Of a stretch of 64,000 nt of DNA, positions 2 through 16,800 are shown piece by piece (the first letter of the stretch is position 1; every line of letters starts with the position of its first letter). Made by a program: the position numbers and the translations under genes. The notes under the pieces are model-generated. The model did not search any database, was not told the DNA's origin, and worked only from the letters and a program-made list of their open reading frames with translations. The stretch comes from Coniochaeta sp. PMI_546 (Eukaryota; Ascomycota; Sordariomycetes; Coniochaetales; Coniochaetaceae): assembly GCA_021432605.1 (NCBI GenBank), contig MU271147.1:1178001-1242000 (forward strand), given 5' to 3'.

Positions 2-1678
2 CGCTCTGCCAATGCCGACTACGCGATAGTGCTGAAGTGGGTTCTCGACCGGAAGTTCCTCTTTGGTATCCCGGCGCATTACCTGATTCCTGACCCGTCT
101 CATCTTCCGGTTGAGTCCCTTCGCTTCTTCCAGATAGATCAGAATTGGGTTGATGCTCTTGTGGATGGTGCTCTCAGTCTTGCCAACCATACCGACCAAG
201 CCGAAGACCCGGCTAGGAACGCGATTCAGGGCGCCATAAAGTCCTTCATCGACACGCCAGACCCGGTGCTTGGCTATAAGCCACAGATACCCACATACGG
301 TTTTTTATTGAGGAGCAACATAGTCACGCAATTTCCTGATCTTCATGTTGATATTCCTTTCACGTCGAAAGATACACCCAAGGCCACTCTCCTTCGCCAT
401 GAAAACATAGATCAAGGTGTGATGCTGGTGCTCATCGACCGTCTTCCTGGCGACAAGGAGCTGACAGGGCTGGCTCTGACGCAACCACCGCACCAGCAGC
501 GCTTTGCCGCCGCCGCCACGGTCGGCATCGAACCTGGTGCCAAGCCCCCCGTTCTTACGCCGACCTTTGAAGTCGAACATATGCCCGTGTTCACAATCTC
601 TAACCCTCCCAGTGGCGATATTGGCCAAAATTGCGGCCCAAAAGTCACGTTTGTTCAGGGGGGCACTTACGACAACCCTCTCTTTGACTTTGAGACGAGA
701 CTGATCAACATCGACAACTTCGCCCAGCACGTGTTGCACAATCTGCAGCAGTATATGCCCAAGACGCCAGTTCCGGAATTCACCGACACTGTGGCAACAG
801 CCGCTATGATGGCCATTCAACTCAACGATCCTGTCTACAGGGTCAACATCACATTTCCTGGCATCCCGGCACCACCATCGGCAAAGCCAGACACGCCGCC
901 GACGTTTGCGGTCACGCACAGAAGTATCAAGACATCTGCGACGTGGAAGTATGGTATAGCAGCACATTATGCGGACTGGATAGCATCCCAGGGCACATCC
1001 CATGTCAAGCCCCAGGGGCTTGCAGGTGGCCATGTCCCTCGGACAATATCGACGGCTGAAGCTCGTTCTCGCCCAAGAAATGCGCCTCCGCCGCATTATC
1101 GAACGATACATTTCAAAAGATTACCACTGGTGGCTTTTACTGACGATCCACCGGCCGACAAACCCAAATTCTCTTACGGAATGTGGCCTGTCGGGGCTGT
1201 GACGGGGAATGTGGGATCCGACCCTCCACCCATTCCAATCACGAAGACGCTGCAGGACCTGGTAATCTCAATCCAACTGCCTCCGGACCAGCGCGAGGTC
1301 GGCAATTTCTTTCTATCGAAAATCGTCGTGGTCATCCCCTACGGCGAACCGAACAATCCTGCGGGACGCACCAACCTATTCAAGAGCTATCGAGGCATCG
1401 GCCCGACAATGCTGAGCAACGTTCGGTTCAACGTCCACACCCAGTACGATAGTGATGTTGACGGGCCACTGATGAAGCTGAGCATCATTCCGAGGCGGGT
1501 CTCCGGGGTCATCAGCATCAAGCTCATCAACGAGATGAGCATCTTGCTTCCTGAGGTGGAGGTGAACGCGTATACGAAGCCTGGGCTTTCCGTCATGTGT
1601 CAGATGTGGGAGTGGTATACCTTTCAGCCCGACCAAGGATTCAGCTCCCCACTGCAAGTGTATTTAGACATCAAATAA
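2..1678 (+). CDS. 3' part of a large protein of unrecognised family (truncated by window edge)
   Basis: The reading frame is open from base 2, so the true start lies outside the window; 558 residues are visible, ending at TAA 1676-1678. No intron is needed. The N-terminal visible part contains the phrases GIPAHYLIPDPSHLP and VDALVDGALSLANH, a style I associate from memory with bacterial hypothetical proteins, but I cannot name a domain. A proline-rich middle and a C-terminal part with alternating beta-like strands (for example IVVVIPYG, LMKLSIIPRR) follow. No membrane segment is visible. It lies on the same strand as, and upstream of, the lectin-like and MBL/DUF6603 genes, which suggests a functional cluster, but this is inference. 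Function unknown. Confidence 0.75.
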   Translation, partial: RSANADYAIVLKWVLDRKFLFGIPAHYLIPDPSHLPVESLRFFQIDQNWVDALVDGALSLANHTDQAEDPARNAIQGAIKSFIDTPDPVLGYKPQIPTYGFLLRSNIVTQFPDLHVDIPFTSKDTPKATLLRHENIDQGVMLVLIDRLPGDKELTGLALTQPPHQQRFAAAATVGIEPGAKPPVLTPTFEVEHMPVFTISNPPSGDIGQNCGPKVTFVQGGTYDNPLFDFETRLINIDNFAQHVLHNLQQYMPKTPVPEFTDTVATAAMMAIQLNDPVYRVNITFPGIPAPPSAKPDTPPTFAVTHRSIKTSATWKYGIAAHYADWIASQGTSHVKPQGLAGGHVPRTISTAEARSRPRNAPPPHYRTIHFKRLPLVAFTDDPPADKPKFSYGMWPVGAVTGNVGSDPPPIPITKTLQDLVISIQLPPDQREVGNFFLSKIVVVIPYGEPNNPAGRTNLFKSYRGIGPTMLSNVRFNVHTQYDSDVDGPLMKLSIIPRRVSGVISIKLINEMSILLPEVEVNAYTKPGLSVMCQMWEWYTFQPDQGFSSPLQVYLDIK

Positions 1679-2663
1679 GCCGAAAGCGCAAGTCTGGTCG
1701 ATCTATGCCTGACGCTTGAATACTATCCCAACAGTTGTCAGCGCAACGCTGAACACCGCTCGCTGATCATCAGAGACTACAGAACTGAATTGACGTCTCG
1801 AGTGGGGGGCATATCATGCAATGGCATACTTCACATGATATTATGTCAAGGCAAACTTCACATGTTATCATGCAAAATCAAACTTTACATGTTGCAAACA
1901 CTCTTTGCCAGTCAGCAGAGCCACGCCATGGGGAAAGGACAGAGAGAAAGAAAGAACTTACTACTTGGGCATAGCAACACATGGTCAAAGTCGGCCGGCC
2001 GTGGCCACTCATGTGTCCCTGGCGCGTCGCCAGCTAAGCCCATTGTATCAATTGCAACACGCTCCTAACGACGGAATCGCGTGTCGGAGTATACTAGGTT
2101 GCATATGCGCGAGTGATGCGCATAAACTCTGCGCACTGTGTCAGCTCAGCCCTGTGAACTAGGCTCATGCAGTTCATTCCCTGCAACCGGTAAAGCTTGG
2201 CAGGTTTGAACTAGTCAGAAGCTTAGCATCCGAACGACATAAGAATGCAACGGCATGTGTGGGTTGACATGCGGCCGAGAGTGTGGAGTAGCCCACCTGC
2301 GGGCGCAACTAGACGTGGGCTGAAAGACCTGAACGGGAAACGACCTTCGGACGGGAGACGCACCCAGCAGGATAATCTGTTCAAGCTGTCGTCTGAAGTT
2401 TGTTTGGGTGGCCTGGCTTCGCTCATCACTGGTCGGCTTCTGACAGAGGAAGACATCACACATAGTTTATAGGCCAAAGTGTCTCAGTAAGAACTGCCGT
2501 GGTGTGGCATCGATCGATGCGTGCGATATTCCCAGGGTCTCACGGCCTCCCCCGACCAAATGGCTTTCACTTTCTCGGTTTCTCATTTAACCTTCCTCGT
2601 CTCTCTGCCAGGGATCTTCTGCCATCGAGAAGAGCCGGAGTTCTCATGCTCAAATTGCCCCCA
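1679..2663. other. Intergenic region, about 1 kb
   Basis: Holds a short degenerate tandem repeat (separate entry) and presumably the promoter of the lectin-like gene. I see no additional coding exon with splice support. Confidence 0.5.
1829..1899. repeat. 27-bp degenerate tandem repeat, about 2.6 copies
   Basis: Two 27-bp units (1829-1855 and 1856-1882) begin CTTCACATG and end CAAA; a third partial copy starts CTTTACATG at 1883. Units differ at several positions. It lies 150 bp past the stop of the first gene. Confidence 0.7.
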
Positions 2664-3796
2664 ATGTCGGCCATCGCGACCCAGTACAACCCGGACGGCA
2701 CCTCTGCCGATGAGATCTTTGTCTTCTATAACGACAAAGACGCCCTGCTAGGCTTTGAGCTGGTGGATGCTCAGTCTACGGATGTAGTCACTTACGACAG
2801 CGCCTCGATCAGCACCAAGGGTTTTATCAGAAATCCTTCTCAGCTGGCGGCGATTCACTTCAAACGTGTTGTAAGCACACTCACTTCACACATCGTGTAC
2901 CCAAGATATGTGCCACAAAGTAGAACTACTAACCAAACTGCTTGGACAGATGCGTGTTTATGCTGTCAATGATGCCGACAGCGACATTGTTTTGATTAGT
3001 CCTGGACTCAAGGATCTCAACATCTCAACTGAAAAGACGTATGGCAGTCTTGCTGTCTGCGGTGACGGGGCAGACCAGGCATGGCTCTTCTATCTCAAGT
3101 AAGCTCGTTTTCAAGAAGGCCTTGGCGTTATTGCTTGACGATTGCTGATACAGACCTTGCTTCAAGAGGCAATCCCTGCACTATCAGGGTGTACGACCTC
3201 CAGCTTAAGGTGCCCACCCCGCTTGGGTTTGGGAACGTTCTGGATAGTTCGTACCTCGCTGCTTGTTATGACACCATCAAGGGACAGGCGCATCTGATCT
3301 ATCAGTCAAATGACAAGCCGTCCGTCTTGGTTCACGCCCAAGGAACCTCTGGAGCCAGCGGTATGATAAAGTCCCAGCGCGTCCCTCTCATGTAAGATCA
3401 AACTCGCCCATTTATGCGATACTCACTCCTCCCACAGGTGAAGGCATCACCAGCACCGACACGGCGGCGGCCAACACGCCCGTCGCCGTCTGTGCTCACC
3501 CGAAGCAGACCCAGATCCAGGTCTACTTCAAGAACAACTCGGACAACATGGTGCACCGCGTCTCCTGGAACCCTGTCGAGAAGAGACCTTACTCCGACCC
3601 GATGATGGTCGGGGAGGCGGCGATGGACGCATTCAGTAGCATCTCCGTCGTTGCGGCTCCTGATGGCAGCGGCGTGCATGTGTTCTATGTGTATGACCAG
3701 GACGAGAAGACGCGGGCTCTGGCTCACGTTGTGGACAACTGGCACACGCACAGCGACAAGGAACGGGGAACTGTAGGCGCCAAGCCGATGTACTAG
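2664..3796 (+). CDS. Fungal fucose-lectin-like beta-propeller protein
   Basis: Predicted exons 2664-2870, 2950-3098, 3167-3360 and 3438-3796 give 302 residues; phases agree at all junctions (0, 2, 1). An in-frame ATG at 2646 would add six residues. Length and repeated blades of the type IFVFYND, AHLIYQSND, IQVYFKNNSD and VHVFYVYDQD resemble the fungal fucose-specific lectin family (AAL type, six-bladed propeller, about 310 residues), whose known members bind fucosylated glycans. No signal peptide is visible, as is usual for that family. Individual sugar-binding residues cannot be assigned by eye. It sits between the truncated unknown gene and the MBL/DUF6603 gene on the same strand. Other propeller proteins remain possible. 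Confidence 0.6.
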
Positions 3797-4322
3797 CGGC
3801 TCGGTAGGAAAGGAAGATATGGGCTGTCCCTGGTAGCCTAGAGTAAAATTGGTAAATACGCCTGATACGGCGGGAACTCAACTCATTCAGTAACAACAAC
3901 ACACGGCAAATATGTAGCGATTTGTGCACTTTTCTCATTTCTCATGGTCAGTCACTATAAGAATTAACAAGTAGAGTGAAAATGAAGCCACACAGGATGC
4001 TAAAATTGAGGAGTCATACTTGCTCGACCTTGAGGTTGTACATCTGTGCCAGTCGATGGTGTGTGTGTGCGTGCGTTTGCAGAGGTAATGTAGACTTAGA
4101 CGAACCAGAATAGCTAGCATTAGGGTGCTTACCTCCTCTACACATGAGCTGATTGATCACTGGAGCGGGGTTTGCCAGAGAGATGTGTCGTATAAGAAGT
4201 ACATGTCCAGCCCCTACCAACCTGGAACCTGCACTCAAGGTCCCCCCCGTCTTCTGTCTCGTCTAGTCTAGTCCCCCATCCCACTCCACTAACTCTCCCT
4301 CTTCCCATGCGTAATCTTCAAC
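3797..4322. other. Intergenic region before the MBL/DUF6603 gene
   Basis: Contains a short GT-rich stretch near 4057-4075 and a pyrimidine-rich leader (4230-4320) directly before the ATG, as is common before fungal genes. No coding exon recognised. Confidence 0.4.
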
Positions 4323-7300
4323 ATGCCCACTTACAAAGCCAACTCCTACCACATCAACGTCCAACAGGGTGACGCGGCCATTTACGACCTATTTGAGGAT
4401 GGTCAGATCATCTCGAGGGTCCTGGTTGATGCGGGCAAGGGCAACGCAAACAACATCGTTAACCTGCGGAATTTTATCAGGAACTATCCACAGCCATTTG
4501 ATGCTGTCGTGATAACCCACTGGGATAGCGATCATTATGTCGGGCTGTACAACCTGTTCATCGAAGAGGTAAACCACCTGAGACTTCTGAGGGGGAGTGC
4601 TCCAGCTCATGATTCATCTTCTGCTTATAGTGGGCGGCCACGACGTCAGGCACATGGCGACCGTCGTTTTTCAGGTTCTTGGGTGATGGAACACCACTGA
4701 CACGTTTCTACTGTCCGTACTTTGAGAACACGCCGCCAGACAGGGGCGATCTCAAGTCCTCGTACAAGAACTTCGAGTCGGTAGGCAGCGGCGCTTACAT
4801 GACGGTCAAGTACGGGAGTGCGGCCTCTGTCCCTGTCGCGGCTCTAGGGCCTGAAAACGTCATTGGCACGGATTTCTTCAACACGATTGATAATCCGCGT
4901 TAGTAGTACTCTCTCCTCTGTCTTAGATGTCAGTCGGGACTCTGCTGATGTCAGTCATCCGCCTCCTCAGCCACGCTGGCGCAGGCCCAGAAGTTCAAAA
5001 CTCCACTAGACTTGATCACATATCATTCCAAGAGCAACTGGCAGCAAAAGCACCCTGGAGCGCCGGGTCTCTACTGCGTGGCCCAGAACTGGACTTACAT
5101 TGGCCCCGGGCCCGGTGTTAGTGCCCCTTCCCGTTCTCACCTCACGACCGATGTGCGCTAACCAAGACTTTGTTCAACCCGGCCCAGCTGGAGATATTCG
5201 ACACGGAGAGCTCTACCTATACCAACCAGAGCTCCATCGCAGCCATGCTGATCTGGCCAGATCTTCAGAAGAGTCTGTACACGGCCGGAGACCGTGATGA
5301 TCCGAGGGAGCAGTACATCGCGGCTTGGTCCCAGTGCCAAGGCGGGCCCGGGCAAGCCGATCACGTCACGACGGTCAAGGCGGGCCACCACGGAGCAGCG
5401 ACGTCGACGGCCACAGATGTTCTGAACAAGTTCAACCCCGAGAACATCATATTCTCTGCTGGCACCGATTACGGCCATCCTCGTACGTTCTCTGCGACAT
5501 ATTCGAGCCGTAGCTGTATATATCTGCTCTCACTGACTTGATGTGTAATTATTTCCAGGATATGAGCTGATCAATTACTTGGCCGGGTGGAACCAACTGA
5601 ACAAGTTGCGGGTCACACCGCACGAGTACAGAAACTTTGAGAAACCGGTCGTCTCCACGGTCTTCCCATACTGGCTTGCTAAAGACAAGAACAACAACTG
5701 GTAGGTCTCGCCTCTTCTCTCTGGGAGGCTTCTGTAACGACACGTGAGCCGACTAACGCATCATCACATCAGGGTGGTCCTACCAATCAACAAGATGTCA
5801 ACCATTGCCATGGATGACGACAAGTACGAGGAATTCCAGACTAACCAGGAAGCCATGTGGAACGATATTGGTGAGGAAATGATCAGGCTCGTCTCTGCCG
5901 ACCCAGGCTACGACACGTCAGCCATTCGACAAGGTAAGTGGAAGCTTTGGATTTATTTTTGATTTATGAGGGGTCGGCAATTTAGATTCCTAGACGTTGA
6001 AAGCCCCTGTGAAAGCCCCATACCTCGGCTTAGTACCGTGGAAGGAAAAGTGATGATTGATGACATGGGGCGCAAGGGGGACCAATGTCTGGCTCCTGAT
6101 AGCTGGAGCCCGCTGGCTTCGTTCCTTTGCTACTGCGACATTGAGCCTCAACTGACAAGATATTCTAGACCCTGTGGCTGCGTATCAAGCGGCTATGCTC
6201 GCCCACCCCGGCGCTGCGAGATTTGACAAGATTCAAGAAATCTGCAACTTGGCCTCGGGGCAGTGGAAGGCATTGTCCAAAGTCGGATCCGACTTATACC
6301 CTGTCATGAGCGCCAAAGGTTGGCTGTACGACGGGGTCGCACAGGTCGCAGGTCTGCGCAAGGACTCAATTGCTTTCATCAGAGTCACGCATACGCAGCC
6401 GTGGTACCAGGACGGATCGGTCGCAGTATACTTCTGCGGCGGGAAGCAGGATGGCTGGTTCCGCAACAACGGCAACCGTAAGGATCCGACCAAGGTCGCA
6501 GTGACTCTTCCTACAATGCCGAGAGCGGCCGTGAGGGACGCTCGTCCTGTTTTCCCTGTTCTCCCAGCCAGGGTCAGCGGCGCATTTCCCTCAAGTGGCC
6601 TGGCCCTGATGTCCGACGATCTGTACATCAACCCAGACGACGACCCGGACGAGGCTGTTGATCCCCTGCCTGCGTCCGGAAAACCGGCCAAGGTGCTGCC
6701 GCTGGCGCCTTATCCGGCCATTACGTGGCCTCCGGGCATTTTCTTCTACAGCACGGGAGGCATCAAGCCACAAGGGGCCGGAGTCACTGCCACCGAGTGT
6801 CTGACCACCTCGCCCTTCGGCTATTTCATCTCGGGGCTGCACATGCAGTTGATAGGACTATCGCCGACCCAAGATCCCACGGGCTGGAGTTCGGTCTTGC
6901 AGAAGGACGAGCTAACGACTTGGTTCACCACCGTGATGCAGCCATTCTTAGGGAGCGTCACGTTGCAGGTCATGTTGGACAGCTCGACCACCAAATTCAA
7001 TGACATGCAACTGACAGTACCGATACTGTTCGGTGCCGGCGTAGTCTTCAACAGTAGCTCGGTTGCTGCCGCTTTTCCAAAGACCATAACTCCACTTACC
7101 GGTGTGGTGGTGGATGAGAGTATGGTGATACTGGGCCTGGATCCGACCAAGTCGCCGGCTGTGCTGAAGACGACGTCGAATGAGATGCTCAAGTACCTGT
7201 TCCTCGACCGACAGCTGCCGTTCGTCTTGGACCTCACATTGGATCCTTCAAAGGCCACTGGGAAGCGCAATGCCGTCTGGTTCGTGCCGGGCCAGAACTA

Positions 7301-10300
7301 TGCTACGACTTTTCGATCTGTCTGGACTGCAGATGCCTCGGGCATCGCTGACCTGAACACGTTCCTAGCCAAGTTTGGCTTGGACATTAGTGTAGAGACA
7401 GCAGAGGTCATAGCCGTGAAAAAGGTGAAATGGGGCGTGCCAAACTTGGATTACGAGTCCAGCGCAACGCTTGGTATCTCGGTCAACTTTGGGAACACGC
7501 AGATGGCCGCGTACCTGGAGTTGAAGATGGGTGGCACCGATCTGACCCTTATCTGCGTTGATGGCGGACCGTCCCTGACCCAGCTGGTGGACTGGGTTGC
7601 GAAGCCCTTCTCTAGCGGCGCAGCCAAGGACGCCCCTCCAAAAGGCGAAGACGTCGAGTCGTGGATCGACAAGATCGGGGAGAACATCAAGCCGAGGCAA
7701 GTGAAGGTCTCACTGGATCAGAACGACGCCCTGGTGTATTGTGAAGTCTCCTTCGAGGTCGACTTGACCATCGGACAGGCCCAGGGTGCCGGCCAGACTG
7801 TCGCGTCCTTGTTTACCTTTTCCTGGAGCAAGGATATTGGCCTAGGACTGAGCGGGAGTTTCTTTCCGGGTATGACACCCACCGAGTCCTCTCCTCATTA
7901 TATGCGGAGCACTGACATTCTACAGCCGCCCCCCCTCTACCCTTCATCAATGACAAAGCCCTCATTCCAGGCTACGAGGAGTACCGAGACCTCCAGCCTG
8001 AAGCGAAGGACGCCGTGTCATCTATCGACCTTGCCTACTTGATACCGGGCATGAGCATCACAGAGGTCCCCGGCTCAGTTCATCCCGCCATCCAAGCCGC
8101 TTCATTCTCCATCGCGGCAGACGAGTACACCTTCTTTGCTGCGATTACGACAGTCGAGACCCCAGCAGCAGCGGCGGCAGACTCGTCGCCAGTGCCCCAT
8201 CTACGCCTCGGCCTGTTGTCATTGGGTGCTACCTACTCCACAACTCTCGGCCTATCCCTGAAGTGCGACCTTCAAATCAGCCTTACTGGCAAGCAGGATG
8301 CCAACTCCCGACAGGCCTTGCTCCTCGGGTCGCTGGAGTACATGAGGACATCCCGGGCACAGCACGCACTGTCACGGCGTGGCAAGCTCAGAAGCACCGA
8401 CTCCGCTTCATCGTGGCAGGTCTCCGCCGGAATCCAGGATCTGCAGGTCGGTACGCTGTACGAGCTCTTCGACTCAGACTCACAGGACGGGGTATTGGGT
8501 CTCATCGGCCACATCAAGATTGCCTGGCTCGACTTCGTCTACAACTATAGCTCTGGGCAGGCGACCGACTTCACCTTCAGCGGCCTGCTGCTTCTCGGCC
8601 CTCTGCAGTTGGAGCTGGACTACCATTATCCGTCGTCTGGCTTGTGGAAGTTCCATGCCAGCCTAACGGAGCAACCAGGGGTTTCGGTGACGCTGAATCA
8701 GCTGGTTGGGGAGCTGCAGAATCAAGGCTCTCCTCAGATAGTCCTGCCTGGCTTCGTGGGTGACGTTGTGTTGACGGCGAACAACGCAATCCTGGAGGTC
8801 ACAGTTCAGAGCTCCGTAATTGGTGGTAACTCGACTGTGTTTGTCACAGTCGACCTGAAGCTTGGCGACTTTGAGGTTCTCTTTGTCCAGTTCCAGGAGA
8901 AGGGCGAGACCGCGGCAAAGAGGCTCTTCAGAGCTGCCGTCACGGGCTTGGGAGAGGTCGACAACGTTCCGATCATCGACAAGATCTCGCAGCCGTTCGA
9001 CGACATGTACTTCCTGTACGTCGTTGACGGGAACCCCGACGACCAGGGGATCACAAAGGCGGAGCTCGACGCTGTGAACGGGATACTGCCTGCCACATCG
9101 CGACCATTGGTCGTGATGCAGACCAAGGCAAACCCGACACCTGCGGACATACTGATCAAGCCTGGCGCGCATTTTGTGGTGGCCATGAGAGTGGACAACG
9201 TCCCGACAGCCGTCCTCGATTACGGATTTACGCCCGACAAGGAGACCCCCTCGGGGCCCCATGACAAGGCCGCAGAAGTGCTCGCCGACCAGCCAGACAC
9301 TGGCTCTGGACAGGCAACATTAAAGAAGACCATCGGCCCCCTAACTATCAACAACATAGGACTCCAGTACAAGGACGGTAGTCTAGGCATCCTTCTGGAC
9401 GCGACATTCAAGCTCGGCCCGATCGAGCTCGACCTCATCGGCTTCAGTCTGATGGTACCCCTGACAGGCTTCACGATAAACTCCGTGCTGACGCCTCAGG
9501 TCTCCATCAATGGACTCGCTGTATCGTTCAACGAGCCACCCACTTCCATGGCCGGAATGTTCGCCAAGCTCAACGAAGCCCTCTACATCGGTGGCCTGGC
9601 CGTCTCCTTCGATCCATACGTCCTGACCGCCGCCGGTGCGTACGGCACCATCACCGACGCGCAGGGCCACCAGTTCAAGACGGTCGCCGTCTTCGCAGAG
9701 CTTCAGGGCCCGCTCATCGAACTCGAGTTTGCTCAAGTATCAGGCATGACCCTCGGCTTCGGCTACAACTCGCACCTCACCCCTCCCACCGTCGACAGCG
9801 TCACCTCCTTCCCGCTCGTCGGGCCCAAAGCCGTACCCTCCGGAAACGCCATCGACATCTTCGGCACGCTGCAGACCCCGTCCCCACCCGCACCGGCCCC
9901 GCCCTGGATCGTCCCGCAGTCGGGCTCCCTCTGGCTCGCCGCAGGCCTCAATGCAACCGCCCTCTCCACCCTCTCGGTCTCGGCCCTCGTCGTCCTCGAG
10001 TTCTCCTCCTCGGTAACCCTGGGCCTCTTCGCCCAGGCCGTCGCCCAGTTCCCCACCACCTCCCCAACCATTCTCTACGCCGAGCTCGGCCTGGCGGGCA
10101 CCATCGACTTCTCCGCCGGCACGCTGCTGATCCAGGCCAAGCTGTCGCCGGCCTCCTACATCCTCGACCCCTCCTGCCACCTGACCGGCGGCTTCGCCCT
10201 GGGCTACTGGTTCGGCTCCAGCCCGCACGCGGGCGACTTCGTCTTCTCCCTGGGCGGCTACCACCCGGCCTACCGCCCGCCAGCGCACTACCCTACCCCG

Positions 10301-11825
10301 GCGCCGGACAGGCTGGGGATCTGGTGGTCGCTCGACGGGTGTCTCACCATCACGGGCGGGTCGTACATGGCCGTGACGCCCAAGGCGTGCATGGCTGGCG
10401 CGAGCCTGCATGCTGCGCTCAGCTTAGGACCGCTTTCGGCATCGTTTGATGCGTGGGCTGATTTCTTGGTGAACTTCCAGCCGTTTTGGTTCCAGGGAGA
10501 TGGTGGAGTGTCGGTGAGGGTAGAGTTTACGCTTGATTTGTGGATTGTGACGATTCATATCGATGTTGAGATTGGGGCGAGCTTGGCGGTTTGGTATGTC
10601 CATTCCTTTTCTTTTCTGTCGTTGCTGTCCCGTCTCGAATGTCTATTTTCTTTGTTTTTCTTTGGAAGAGAGATCAGATCTCACAGGCTGTCCATCCTAT
10701 CAGCGAATGGACCGAATGGACCGGCCATCCAACTGACATGCGCAAAACAGGGGACCATCCATGGCAGGCACTGTACATGTGGACTTCTGGGTGTTCGGCT
10801 TCGATATCAACTTTGGCTCCAGCGGCGGCAAACCAGATGCGGCTGTGCTAGTCGAGGACTTCTACAAGAAGGTCCTATTGCAGAACAAGGACAGCAGCGA
10901 GCATGCTGTCGAAGGCAGCCCGGCCAACGACCACACGGTAACGTGCGTCAAGGGCTTGGTGCCGAGCGCGCACGGGACGACGGAGACGGCACCAGCTGCA
11001 ACGTGGAACGTCCGCGGCGGCGTGTTTGCGTTCTCGATCAAGAGCGTGTTCCCCTTTACCCACGCCGCCATTGACCAGGGGGGGCAGGTGCCGGTCCCAC
11101 CGGCTGTCGTCAACCCCGTCTACTCGAAGCCGATGTGGAGATCTAAGGACCAGCCGCTAGACACGACGGTGACCATATCCATCTTCGAGGGCCAGGAAGG
11201 TTCTGGTGCCACGGAGACAATACAGGGATTCCAGATTGCTGGTAACATTGCCGAGCTGCCGACTGCGATCTGGGGAGATTGTGAGTTTCTCTCTAGCCAA
11301 CGTACTCAAACCGACAGATTGGAACGCTTGCTAACAAACCGCACCAAAGACACAACCGAGACCGACCCCCTGCGCTCCTCCCAAGGCAACCAGATCCAGA
11401 CGCTCCTGAACGGCGACGACCCCACCGTCTCCCTCCTCAACGGCGTGACCATCACGGCGCCCAGGCCGTACTTCTCCACAGACCCCATCCCGCCCTTCAA
11501 CGTCCTATTCAGCAACATCGACATCGTCAACGACGGGGAGGTGTTTGACGTGTACAACGTGCCGCGCTGCGAGGGGCCGTGGGACCCGGTCCCCGTGGCC
11601 GACCGAATGGCGCAGTACGCGGTCGTGGAGAAGGCCTGGCTGAATCCGGGCGCGGGCGCAGAGGCGGCGCAGAAGGCGGCGACGATGTGGGCGACGCTGT
11701 GGGCTGGGCCGGGGGAGACGCCGCCTGAGATCGTGGGGGGGCCGCCGCCGGGGATGTTGGGGCTGAACAAGGGCGTGTTTGAGATGGATTACTTGGAGGC
11801 GCCGATGGTGAGTGTTGGTGCTTGA
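4323..11825 (+). CDS. Predicted 2217-residue fusion: ComEC-like metallo-beta-lactamase domain plus DUF6603-like region
   Basis: Ten exons fit by splice signals and phase: 4323-4568, 4631-4898, 4971-5116, 5167-5482, 5559-5700, 5773-5933, 6169-7869, 7926-10593, 10751-11280, 11350-11825 (6654 nt). Residues 1-430 form a metallo-beta-lactamase fold of ComEC type: HWDSDH at 66-71 (ComEC has HPDADH), GDRD near 261 and [10 protein letters not shown] near 291-300. No ComEC membrane domain follows. From about 430 there is a linker, then a long beta-rich region whose end (about 1765-1910) has [15 protein letters not shown], an Ala/Gly-rich stretch and [15 protein letters not shown], features I recognise from DUF6603 proteins of bacteria and fungi. 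No signal peptide or clear membrane helix. The MBL part could hydrolyse a phosphodiester or similar bond; substrate unknown. The join depends on the 235-nt intron 5934-6168; two separate genes are the alternative. Confidence 0.7.
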
Positions 11826-13847: not shown

Positions 13848-16800
13848 ATGGGAGAAGTGAACCCTCACAGACATGGTGACAATAACGACGACTCAGGCCC
13901 TCCGCCGGCCGACCCAGACGAGCCGCCGTCACTGCACCCTAGACAGGTTACCTCGCCTCGCGTTGCGGACCGTCATCATGACCCGGCCGGTCTGAGTACT
14001 GCCGATGAGAAGGACAGCAACTTTGCACGCCGCGGTGTCGATGATGAGGCCGGTGGTGGCGTGAAAGCGGTGCCTCTCACAGCCCCCCGTGCTCTCTCAG
14101 TCGCCCCCGCTGCTGCTGCTGCCCTCAACATTACGAACCCTCCACACGCGATCCCGGCTGCAGAAGTAGCCCGCAATCTGCGAAGCCATCTTCAGCACGG
14201 ACTCACGGCCGCTGAGGCTGCCCTGCGTCTGGAGCGTGATGGACCAAACAAGGTCGAGACGTCTGGCGGCACTTCGGCGCTGCAGATCTTGGCTAGGCAG
14301 GTGTCGAACAGCCTGACGGTCGTCCTCGTCGCTGTCATGGTGCTGTCATTCATCATTCAAGACTATATTGAGGCCAGTGTCGTGGCTGCCGTCATCGTAT
14401 TTAACATTGTGGTCGGGTATGTTGTGCCCCATGCCCGTACATATGTCACTACGACCCCCTACTTGCCTCATCTCTGTGCTGTTTACGTGATGTCAATTCA
14501 TGCCTTGTGGGCATATGACTTCAATCAGCATTGCTCAGGAAACTCTAAAAGCGCTTACGCTAAACTCATCTCTCAGGTTCCGCCAGGACTACAAAGCTGA
14601 GAGCCAAATGCAAGCTTTGTTAACCTTGGCCTCACCTACCTGCACAGTCATCCGTGACGGGGGCCGCCTTGAGGAGATCAAAAGCGAGGCCGTCGTTGTT
14701 GGCGACCTCATCAGCGTTAGCGCGGGCGATGTCGTCCCTGCCGACGCCCGTCTAGTCGATTCGCTTAGCCTGTCAGTCGATGAGGCTAACCTCACGGGCG
14801 AGTCTCTGCCCATCAGCAAGCACGCCGACGCGATACTTCCGGCTAACGATGTCGCCCTCGGTGATCGCATCAACATGCTGTACGCCACCACGGCTATCGC
14901 TCGCGGACGCGCCACCGCTATCGTCACGAGCACTGGTATGGATACCGAGGTGGGCAAGATCGCTCGCATGCTCCGGTCACAGAAGTCGGTTGCCGAAGGT
15001 ACCTCCACGATGATGCGGGCTTTCGCCTGGTTGAAACGCAAGGGCAGCAGCATCCTCGGCTTTGACGGCACCCCTCTGCAGAATAAACTCAGCAAGTTTG
15101 CCCTGCTACTGTTTGGCTTCGCTATCTTGCTGGTGCTTATTGTCTTCGCCGCCAGCCGCTTCGAGCTGGACGGTCAAGAGGTTATCTATGGCATCTGCGT
15201 CGGCGTCGCCGTAATACCTGAGTCTCTCATCGCCGTTCTAACCCTGACCTTTACCGTCGCCGCCCGTGCTATGTGTCGAGGCAACGTGCTTGTACGCAAC
15301 AAAGCTGCGCTACAGGCCGTTGGCGGCGTCACCAACATCTGCTCGGATAAGACCGGCACGCTGACGCAGGGCCGCATGCTCACGCGCAAGGTCTGGCTTC
15401 TCGAGGGCGGCACCACGGTGACAGTTCACAACACCAGCGACCCTTTCGACCCCTACAGTGGCAAGGTGGTTTGGAACGATGACGCCGCCTTGCTACCCGT
15501 CGTCGGAAAGGATGGCGAGACATCCAGCTCAGCACTCGTCCCAACAATCGAGAAGGCCGGCGAAGGTCGCTTCCCAGCCACCTTCTCTCCGTTTCTCGAG
15601 GCTGTCGCTCTCTGCAACAACTCCACGGTAACCGACGACCAGAATGGTGGGACAACCCCTGAGGATAGCGCCTCTGTCACCACCGCCGCCCTTCCTGCTT
15701 CCTGGACTGCCGTGGGTGAGCCCACCGAGATCGCTCTCCAGGTCTTTGCCATGCGTTTTGGCAAGGGCAAGCCGGACGTTATGCAGAGCAACAACGTTCG
15801 CCTGGTCACTGAGTTCCCCTTTGATTCCACAGCTAAACGCATGAGTGTCGTCTATGCCGCCTCTTCCAAAGCTGCTTCCAACGGCGACCGATATGTTTAC
15901 ACCAAAGGCGCTATAGAGGTTGTCCTTCCTCTGCTGGCGGACTCGGATGATGTCAAATCGTCTATCACTGCCACGGCCGACGAGCTCGCCTCGGAGGGCC
16001 TTCGAGTTCTTTGCATTGCTTACAAGATTGTGTCCGACCCTGCCGTTCCTCTCAAGGACCGCGCAGACGCCGAATCGAACCTCCAGTTCCTCGGCCTCGC
16101 TGGCCTCTACGACCCACCTCGGCTGGAGACCGCCGCGTCTGTCCACGGCTGCCACACAGCCGGCATCTCGGTCCACATGGTGACGGGCGATCATGTCAAG
16201 ACGGCAACCACTATCGCCTACGAAGTCGGCATCCTGTCGCGGGAGCAGCACCATCCCGACTCGCTGGGCTCGCTGGTCATGACGGCGTCTGACTTCGACA
16301 GCCTCACCGACGCGCAGATCGACGCGATGGAGAGCCTACCGCTGGTCGTGGCCCGCTGCAGCCCGCTCACCAAGGTGCGCATGCTCGAGGCCCTGCACCG
16401 GCGCCGTGCCTATTGCGCCATGACGGGCGACGGCGTCAACGACTCCCCGGCGCTGAAACGAGCCGACATTGGAATTGCGATGGGCATGCGCGGTAGCGAC
16501 GTCGCCAAGGAGGCATCAGACATGGTGCTCACTGACGACAACTTCGCGTCCATTGTCAACGCTATCAAGGAAGGACGACGTCTTTTTGACAACGTGCAGA
16601 AGGTTTGTTGCTTGCCATGCCTTTTTTTGCCGCTTACCTGCTCTCAATCTCTTCTAGCAAACAGCCGAAAAGTCAGCCAAATGCTTCAGGCCAGAAACTC
16701 AGAAGCAGAACCAAGAGTGGAGTATTGTCCACGACATCTTTGACCCCAGAAGCCAACATTACTAACTGACACCGCACCCTTTTTAGTTTCTCCTGCATCT

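Follow-up and report, generated by a model that had tools for sequence, protein, structure and literature searches.

Metallo-beta-lactamase (MBL) domains of the ComEC/Rec2 kind (TIGR00361) are marked by the motifs HxDxDH, D and HHG, and the beta-lactamase-like domain of ComEC is described in PMC12455585 as an endonuclease and 5'-3' exonuclease. Related MBLs (HamM; those of AVAST, Lamassu and DRT) are, according to PMC12799240, DNases of antiphage systems that are encoded just upstream of their partners. For DUF6603 (PF20248), Pfam assigns no function, and no paper naming DUF6603 or PF20248 was found in the literature searched, subscription literature being outside its scope. An MBL of the ComEC kind and DUF6603 are fused in one intron-containing gene of a eukaryote, Coniochaeta sp. 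PMI_546, at positions 4323-11825 (forward strand) of a 64,000-nt window; the window is the whole stretch of DNA that was analyzed, and it corresponds to positions 1,178,001-1,242,000 of the forward strand of contig MU271147.1.

Two further kinds of described system invite comparison. Polymorphic toxin systems, as presented in PMC3482391, combine one conserved carrier with many interchangeable enzymes, with some adhesion or Hint-like domains nearby; the same source reports that bacterial toxin domains reached fungi and links them to heteroincompatibility. A Tc toxin complex has been reported in Metarhizium (PMC13236867), and it resembles the present locus in that giant bacterial-type proteins stand in a fungal genome and, by analogy only, in that cargo is carried by a complex. 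Literature searches for a system like the present one brought up analogies at most. Identity with Tc toxins was rejected, as no TcA, TcB or TcC domains were found by Pfam in the proteins scanned. Judging from sequence, the most likely explanation, at about even odds, is that the Coniochaeta fusion protein is an MBL nuclease mounted on the carrier subunit of a bacteria-derived and so far undescribed complex for effector delivery.

Structure of the MBL-DUF6603 fusion gene

Nine exons on the forward strand (4323-4568, 4631-4898, 4971-5116, 5167-5482, 5559-5700, 5773-5933, 6169-7869, 7926-10593 and 10751-11825) join into one reading frame of 2240 amino acids with a single terminal stop codon (11823-11825). 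The eight introns are all of the GT-AG type, in phase and 50-235 bases long; five lie inside the 1.6 kb of the MBL half, the sixth lies at its end, and two lie in the remaining 5.7 kb (intron 7, 7870-7925; intron 8, 10594-10750, the latter inside the region homologous to bacterial carriers). A preliminary description of this gene had proposed a fusion of 2217 residues; the single frame stood, but the length is greater by 23 residues, presumably because of other splice choices. The two introns which that description had placed at 5934-6168 and 7870-7925 agree exactly with the gene model, and the in-phase joining of the two halves is supported by the gene structure, by Pfam and by the bacterial comparison given below. 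At the level of sequence, the fusion of MBL and DUF6603 is confirmed as real.

The two halves meet at intron 6 (5934-6168, forward strand), which begins with GTAAGT, ends with TTCTAG and has a GC content of 0.485 versus 0.536 and 0.574 in its flanks. At 235 nt, it is the longest of the introns, and this length speaks for two neighboring genes in place of one, namely an MBL gene with its stop codon TGA at 5960-5962, where the unspliced frame of exon 6 closes, and a DUF6603 gene whose start codon would be the ATG at 6195. That early exon 7 ATG has a purine at -3, and bacteria encode MBL and DUF6603 apart (fused in 0 of 96 independent loci). However, intron 6 has a strong in-phase donor and acceptor, a branch-site-like CTGAC precedes the acceptor, and just 232 bases would have to accommodate both a terminator and a promoter; two genes are considered very improbable. 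The frame of exon 7, read without splicing, is closed at 6153-6155.

The MBL half (amino acids 1-426; six exons, 4323-5933, forward strand) carries the metal-binding-type motif HWDSDH (4518-4535), GDRD (5287-5298) and GHHG (5383-5394), all on the forward strand and in the ComEC-like order. All three had been named in the preliminary description, and they align with conserved motifs of nine bacterial MBL proteins, the first Asp of GDRD with their conserved Asp. A hidden Markov model (HMM) built from 18 bacterial MBLs and run on 1116 sequences matched the spliced fusion model (E 4e-29) as well as two of the fusion gene's frames read singly and unspliced (2e-15 and 3e-9); the only other match among these sequences was a second MBL of the same fungus, added by hand (2e-10). 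Pfam gave MBL matches to the fusion below threshold only, and the nearest solved relative in the PDB was ComEC, by a weak match (E 0.013); the nearest solved relative of one bacterial MBL encoded upstream of DUF6603 was also ComEC. Dissimilar from ComEC/Rec2 DNA-uptake proteins, the fusion chain showed no competence channel family in the Pfam scan, and its highest 19-residue hydropathy, 1.76, lies inside the DUF6603 region. The motifs, the bacterial MBL model and the lack of a competence family in Pfam support the earlier assignment to a ComEC-type MBL without the channel. Because the domain keeps the motifs of families with known nucleases, DNA is the best guess for its substrate, by analogy; matches of the fusion MBL to LmuA and Avs1a in PADLOC, given below, point the same way.

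The remainder of the chain opens with a stretch without a recognized homolog (amino acids 427-1155; 6169-8410, forward strand, exon 7 and the start of exon 8): Pfam found no family for exon 7, phmmer gave no match for amino acids 428-1000, and the long-DUF6603 HMM built from bacteria did not extend its match into this stretch. Amino acids 1156-2063 (8411-11291, forward strand) are homologous to bacterial DUF6603 carriers (E 1.5e-171 with a bacterial-only HMM), and amino acids 1459-1980 (9320-11042, forward strand) are DUF6603 proper, with a Pfam match of E 1e-151 and 506 bits, versus a cut-off of 27, that spans positions 1-501 of the 502 in the model. Motifs such as AGDF and TP..M are held in common with five bacterial relatives, and the last exon (10751-11825, forward strand) carries the final part of DUF6603 and the C-terminal tail of the protein. 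By a hydrophobic-moment test, a rough measure, beta-type periodicity was seen at amino acids 1159-2081 (z 4.2 versus 100 shuffles), with a value of 1.5 for amino acids 427-1158 and none for the MBL half. What had been described as a DUF6603-like region of about 1700 residues thus includes genuine DUF6603, but homology to bacteria is detectable only over amino acids 1156-2063; the statement that no function has been described holds in the literature searched. In the 33.5 Mb genome of the fungus, where the window lies on contig 5, a DUF6603 search gave two matches, both in exons of the fusion gene, and none of 14 control genomes contained DUF6603. The short GT-AG introns and the genes present are in keeping with a filamentous fungus.

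Two further genes of the cluster encode families for which we use the working names FLFG, after its motif, and BIG. The FLFG gene, a single open frame of 1132 amino acids on the forward strand, starts ~1720 bases before the window and has its 3' part at 1-1678; the BIG gene, a single frame of 1416 amino acids on the reverse strand, lies upstream of FLFG and outside the window (contig 5, ~1171213-1175463). Bacterial-only HMMs matched fungal FLFG at E 8e-114 and fungal BIG at E 8e-135, and BIG, FLFG and the fusion gene stand together within 18.6 kb. The bacterial DUF6603, FLFG and BIG models matched nothing else in the 73.9 kb searched (1116 sequences), and BIG and DUF6603 have one locus each in the whole genome, in which only the best candidates were scored.

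The bacterial DUF6603 operon and its upstream gene

A tblastn search of plasmids found DUF6603 in seven records of Streptomyces, Embleya and Paenibacillus, and on one Embleya plasmid an FLFG relative adjoined DUF6603. Two peptide patterns run over genome contigs of 84,980 species gave 51 loci, from Actinomycetota, Bacillota, Pseudomonadota, Bacteroidota, Cyanobacteriota, Acidobacteriota, Myxococcota and SAR324. Together with the plasmids, these formed a first set of 58 loci, all found via DUF6603, with FLFG in 57 and BIG in 53. Usually, DUF6603 heads the operon and is followed by FLFG and then BIG; the exceptions are BIG upstream in L051, L053 and L063, extra genes between in L042, and some loci cut by contig ends. 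A second sample comprised 398, 391 and 395 genomes around three of the first loci, of which 9, 57 and 17, respectively, had DUF6603 (16 of the 17 over the cut-off), as against 0 of 14 control genomes; the 57 of 391 belong to one Streptomyces-containing order. From this sample, 40 hand-chosen places of 107 were fetched, which gave 98 loci in all and 96 independent ones after two duplicates were dropped. FLFG was present in 86 and BIG in 80 of the 96; these fractions are not unbiased estimates.

The gene upstream of DUF6603, here called the slot, was defined as a same-strand gene directly upstream that ends no more than 1000 bases from the DUF6603 frame. By this rule a ComEC-type MBL occupies the slot in 18 of the 96 loci, or in 19 with L003, where the DUF6603 frame is split. 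Beyond these, the MBL model matched in 1.8 Mb one gene of L040, located 4.7 kb upstream, and, at the L138 slot, where bases are masked, another frame that overlaps the first. With a separate MBL directly upstream of DUF6603 in bacteria, the halves of the fungal protein follow the bacterial gene order. A second MBL-like family in the slot, with the motifs HFHWDH or HWHWDH and HHG, was seen in L034, L036 and L040 (~6356-7905); these proteins had no phmmer match to the ComEC-type MBLs, and that of L034 was below the Pfam cut-off.

Pfam was run on 31 hand-picked slot genes, and 12 exceeded the curated cut-off as enzymes: three MBLs (L026, L029 and L051), three class-3 lipases (L054, L062 and L064), two PhoD proteins (L147 and L161), two S8 peptidases (L173 and L174), one M64 peptidase (L166) and one ribosome-inactivating protein (RIP; L018, 25.2 bits versus a cut-off of 21). 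Four more had weak but plausible matches, to the endonuclease/exonuclease/phosphatase family (L045 and L055), MBL (L034) and M91 (L031). The carriers of L023 and L025 are 61% identical and their MBLs 28%, while the carriers of L003 and L029 are 36% identical and their MBLs 60%; concordant pairs also occur, for example L021 and L025 (carriers 80%, MBLs 62%). L018, which has the RIP in its slot, shares 82% carrier identity with L019, and none of the other loci yielded a relative of the RIP gene. The discordance between MBL and carrier thus runs in both directions, as in polymorphic toxins, and the bacterial loci have a conserved carrier with exchangeable enzymes; the fungus has one copy. Dissimilar from polymorphic toxins, the cargo lies upstream or N-terminal and not C-terminal, no known trafficking domain was found in DUF6603, FLFG or BIG by Pfam, and the three fungal proteins have no secretion signal by hydropathy. 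Furthermore, residues 17-618 of the 2020-residue DUF6603 frame of L047 show homology to the slot gene of L154, which is encoded separately (E 1e-67); fusion of slot and carrier is therefore possible in bacteria too.

Further hints of delivery come from the genes near BIG, of which eleven downstream ones were also put to Pfam. Two were over the cut-off for a binding domain (F5/8C in L003 and PLAT in L005), and two had a phage tail-collar domain just below the cut-off (L026 and L045), the L026 gene also matching tail-fiber PHROGs at E 3e-19. In L042, a gene between FLFG and BIG has a Hint-like domain below the cut-off (30.9 versus 32.1 bits).

The variety of slot enzymes could also be read in terms of nutrition. 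S8 subtilases, M64 peptidases, PhoD and lipases are common nutrient hydrolases, and several DUF6603 genes stand behind PhoD, M64 and S8 genes without FLFG and BIG, as would be expected if DUF6603, with or without its partners, were an extracellular or storage scaffold that displays or stabilizes hydrolases for nutrient use and has no role in conflict. The RIP and the Hint-like domain, the latter below its cut-off, speak against such a scaffold, as does the strong discordance of MBL and carrier identities, and we consider this explanation rather unlikely.

An intracellular conflict system is another explanation that we regard as unlikely, if slightly less so. The MBL would then be a suicide or anti-element DNase that is held inactive by the DUF6603 complex in the fungal cell and directed against viruses, transposons or foreign nuclei, like the MBL nucleases found with Lamassu, AVAST and Hachiman. 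The fusion MBL does match LmuA (6e-16) and Avs1a (6e-8) in PADLOC, no secretion signal was seen in the three fungal proteins, and the connection of bacterial toxin domains with fungal heteroincompatibility reported in PMC3482391 would suit such a role. However, two bacterial slot MBLs scored only 18-51 bits in NCBIfam, versus the 220 and 420 needed for the full-length defense models, and are thus far below the equivalog cut-offs of the antiphage MBLs (AVAST type 1, Lamassu and 6A-MBL). Unlike the partners in those systems, the carrier proteins scanned with Pfam, PHROGs, NCBIfam and PADLOC showed no ATPase, trypsin-like or other protease, or sensor family. Moreover, lipases, RIP and peptidases in the slot, like the adhesion domains encoded downstream, are better suited to targets outside the cell.

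Origin of the two halves and the proposed delivery complex

When the fungal carrier was placed in a tree with 94 bacterial ones, it fell, on a long branch, inside supported bacterial groups (97 and 99); because of this nesting, the carrier genes were likely transferred from bacteria to the fungus. The clade holding fungal DUF6603 includes actinomycete, Bacillota and proteobacterial sequences. A position of fungal DUF6603 beside one bacterial group was rejected, given this mixed, supported clade and a fungal branch length of 1.95.

The MBL half has a different affinity, and it is also far denser in introns than the rest of the gene, as described above. The same fungus encodes a stand-alone ComEC-type MBL on contig 15 (274647-275666), and this was the nearest relative of the fusion MBL among 13 MBLs compared. 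The best MBL tree requires two changes to account for the slot MBLs, of which the supported branches force one only. A specific assignment of the fusion MBL to the bacterial slot MBLs was rejected, as it scored 98.0 and 103.8 bits with the slot HMM versus 64-141 for true or stand-alone ComEC-type domains in the same genomes and groups with the contig 15 MBL in the tree. In the simplest story, a fungal MBL may have been recruited locally onto the acquired carrier at the position of the bacterial cargo; it is possible that MBL and carrier arrived together.

The delivery complex that we favor would work as follows. DUF6603 would be the first, cargo-bearing subunit of a three-protein complex with FLFG and BIG, and in bacteria it is preceded by a separately encoded, exchangeable enzyme; some bacterial operons continue with a gene that appears to have adhesion or tail-collar domains. 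The enzyme would dock on the complex and be brought to a target cell or into it. The carrier genes of the fungus would be of bacterial origin, and an MBL, likely from a lineage resident in the fungus, would have been joined to the carrier at the position of the cargo gene, so that a ComEC-type, putatively DNA-degrading MBL would be covalently loaded on DUF6603. Of this picture, the reading frame, domain identities, fungal cluster, bacterial operon, range of slot enzymes and discordance of MBL and carrier were observed, and the physical complex, DNA as the substrate, delivery into a different cell and the bacteria-to-fungus direction are inferred. Toxin systems aimed at distant organisms are described in PMC12419801 as usually having no immunity genes.

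Several results weigh against this delivery reading. In the MBL tree, the fusion MBL joins the contig 15 MBL (100/99), apart from the bacterial slot MBLs and ComEC, although the branches are long; the MBL half therefore need not have arrived with the carrier. Some true ComEC domains also outscore the fusion MBL with the HMM of slot MBLs, and a search for the same fusion elsewhere, as the preliminary description had suggested, found MBL and DUF6603 in one frame in 0 of the 96 bacterial loci. The fungal gene order differs from that in bacteria, with FLFG before the fusion and BIG divergent. Among the 31 slot genes, 11 had no match at all, three had implausible weak matches (L004, L154 and L172), and that of L139 is a LysR regulator, which argues against all upstream genes being cargo; seven of the 11 genes downstream of BIG were without any match as well. 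Nine loci have DUF6603 and neither FLFG nor BIG (L147, L150, L152, L161, L166 and L172-L175), and seven of the nine, with L176, form one branch of the tree (support 100). Hydropathy showed neither a signal-peptide-like start nor a clear membrane segment in the three fungal proteins, so that release is left unexplained. Finally, profiles of DUF6603, FLFG and BIG found no convincing relative in the PDB (for BIG, one chance-level match, E 0.45), and there is thus no sign of a shell, pore or injector.

DUF6603, together with two families whose scanned members match nothing in Pfam, becomes a testable system, a conserved three-gene carrier with an exchangeable enzyme slot, and operon context and slot are the source of the functional lead for DUF6603. 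If delivery is correct, the locus would add a delivery route, and it would be a rare multi-gene bacterial apparatus that has been kept together in a fungus. A wider claim is held only tentatively and with some doubt: DUF6603, FLFG and BIG might constitute a new class of protein-delivery machine that has no sequence kinship to injectisomes, contractile tails or Tc toxins and takes interchangeable enzymes on its first subunit; spread over several bacterial phyla, it would have entered a fungus as one functional unit and been covalently loaded there with the fungus's own nuclease. Should delivery prove wrong, the MBL-DUF6603 fusion would still be a direct handle on a family detected in 57 of the 391 genomes sampled from an order that includes Streptomyces.

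Other DUF6603 arrangements and neighboring genes

A phage origin of the carrier was rejected. PHROGs gave no match for the DUF6603, FLFG and BIG proteins tried, one of each, and the 29 pattern matches in viral contigs yielded 0 confirmed; the same three kinds of protein, one each, had no match in PADLOC.

Other arrangements of DUF6603 were seen in bacteria. A second architecture, without FLFG and BIG, places DUF6603 behind PhoD-like (L147 and L161), M64 (L166) and S8 (L173 and L174) genes. Giant DUF6603 frames of ~3200-3500 amino acids with a long N-terminal part occur in L054, L140-L142, L151, L153 and L177; that of L054, the only one of these scanned, had no Pfam family match, and the giant frames may represent carriers that have a very large cargo built in. 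In L007, a plasmid of Streptomyces sp. NBC_01276, genes annotated as a CATRA conflict system protein and a CHAT-domain protein (1074-6130) lie a few kb upstream of the DUF6603 operon.

In the fungus, a second, solitary FLFG homolog, a 704-amino-acid frame (E 4e-99), lies on the reverse strand of contig 3 (~468756-471017), with no DUF6603, BIG or MBL matches within 19.8 kb around it; it is possibly a relic or a paralog with a role of its own. Between FLFG and the fusion gene, an orphan gene of ~302 amino acids (2664-3796, forward strand) was modeled with four exons (2664-2870, 2950-3098, 3167-3360 and 3438-3796), other splice choices being possible. No Pfam family, solved relative or second copy was found for it, and it may or may not belong to the cluster; a first impression that it encodes a fucose-type lectin was rejected, as it had no Pfam match and no PDB relative. 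Downstream of the cluster, at 14500-16740, lies an ordinary gene for a P-type cation-transporting ATPase.

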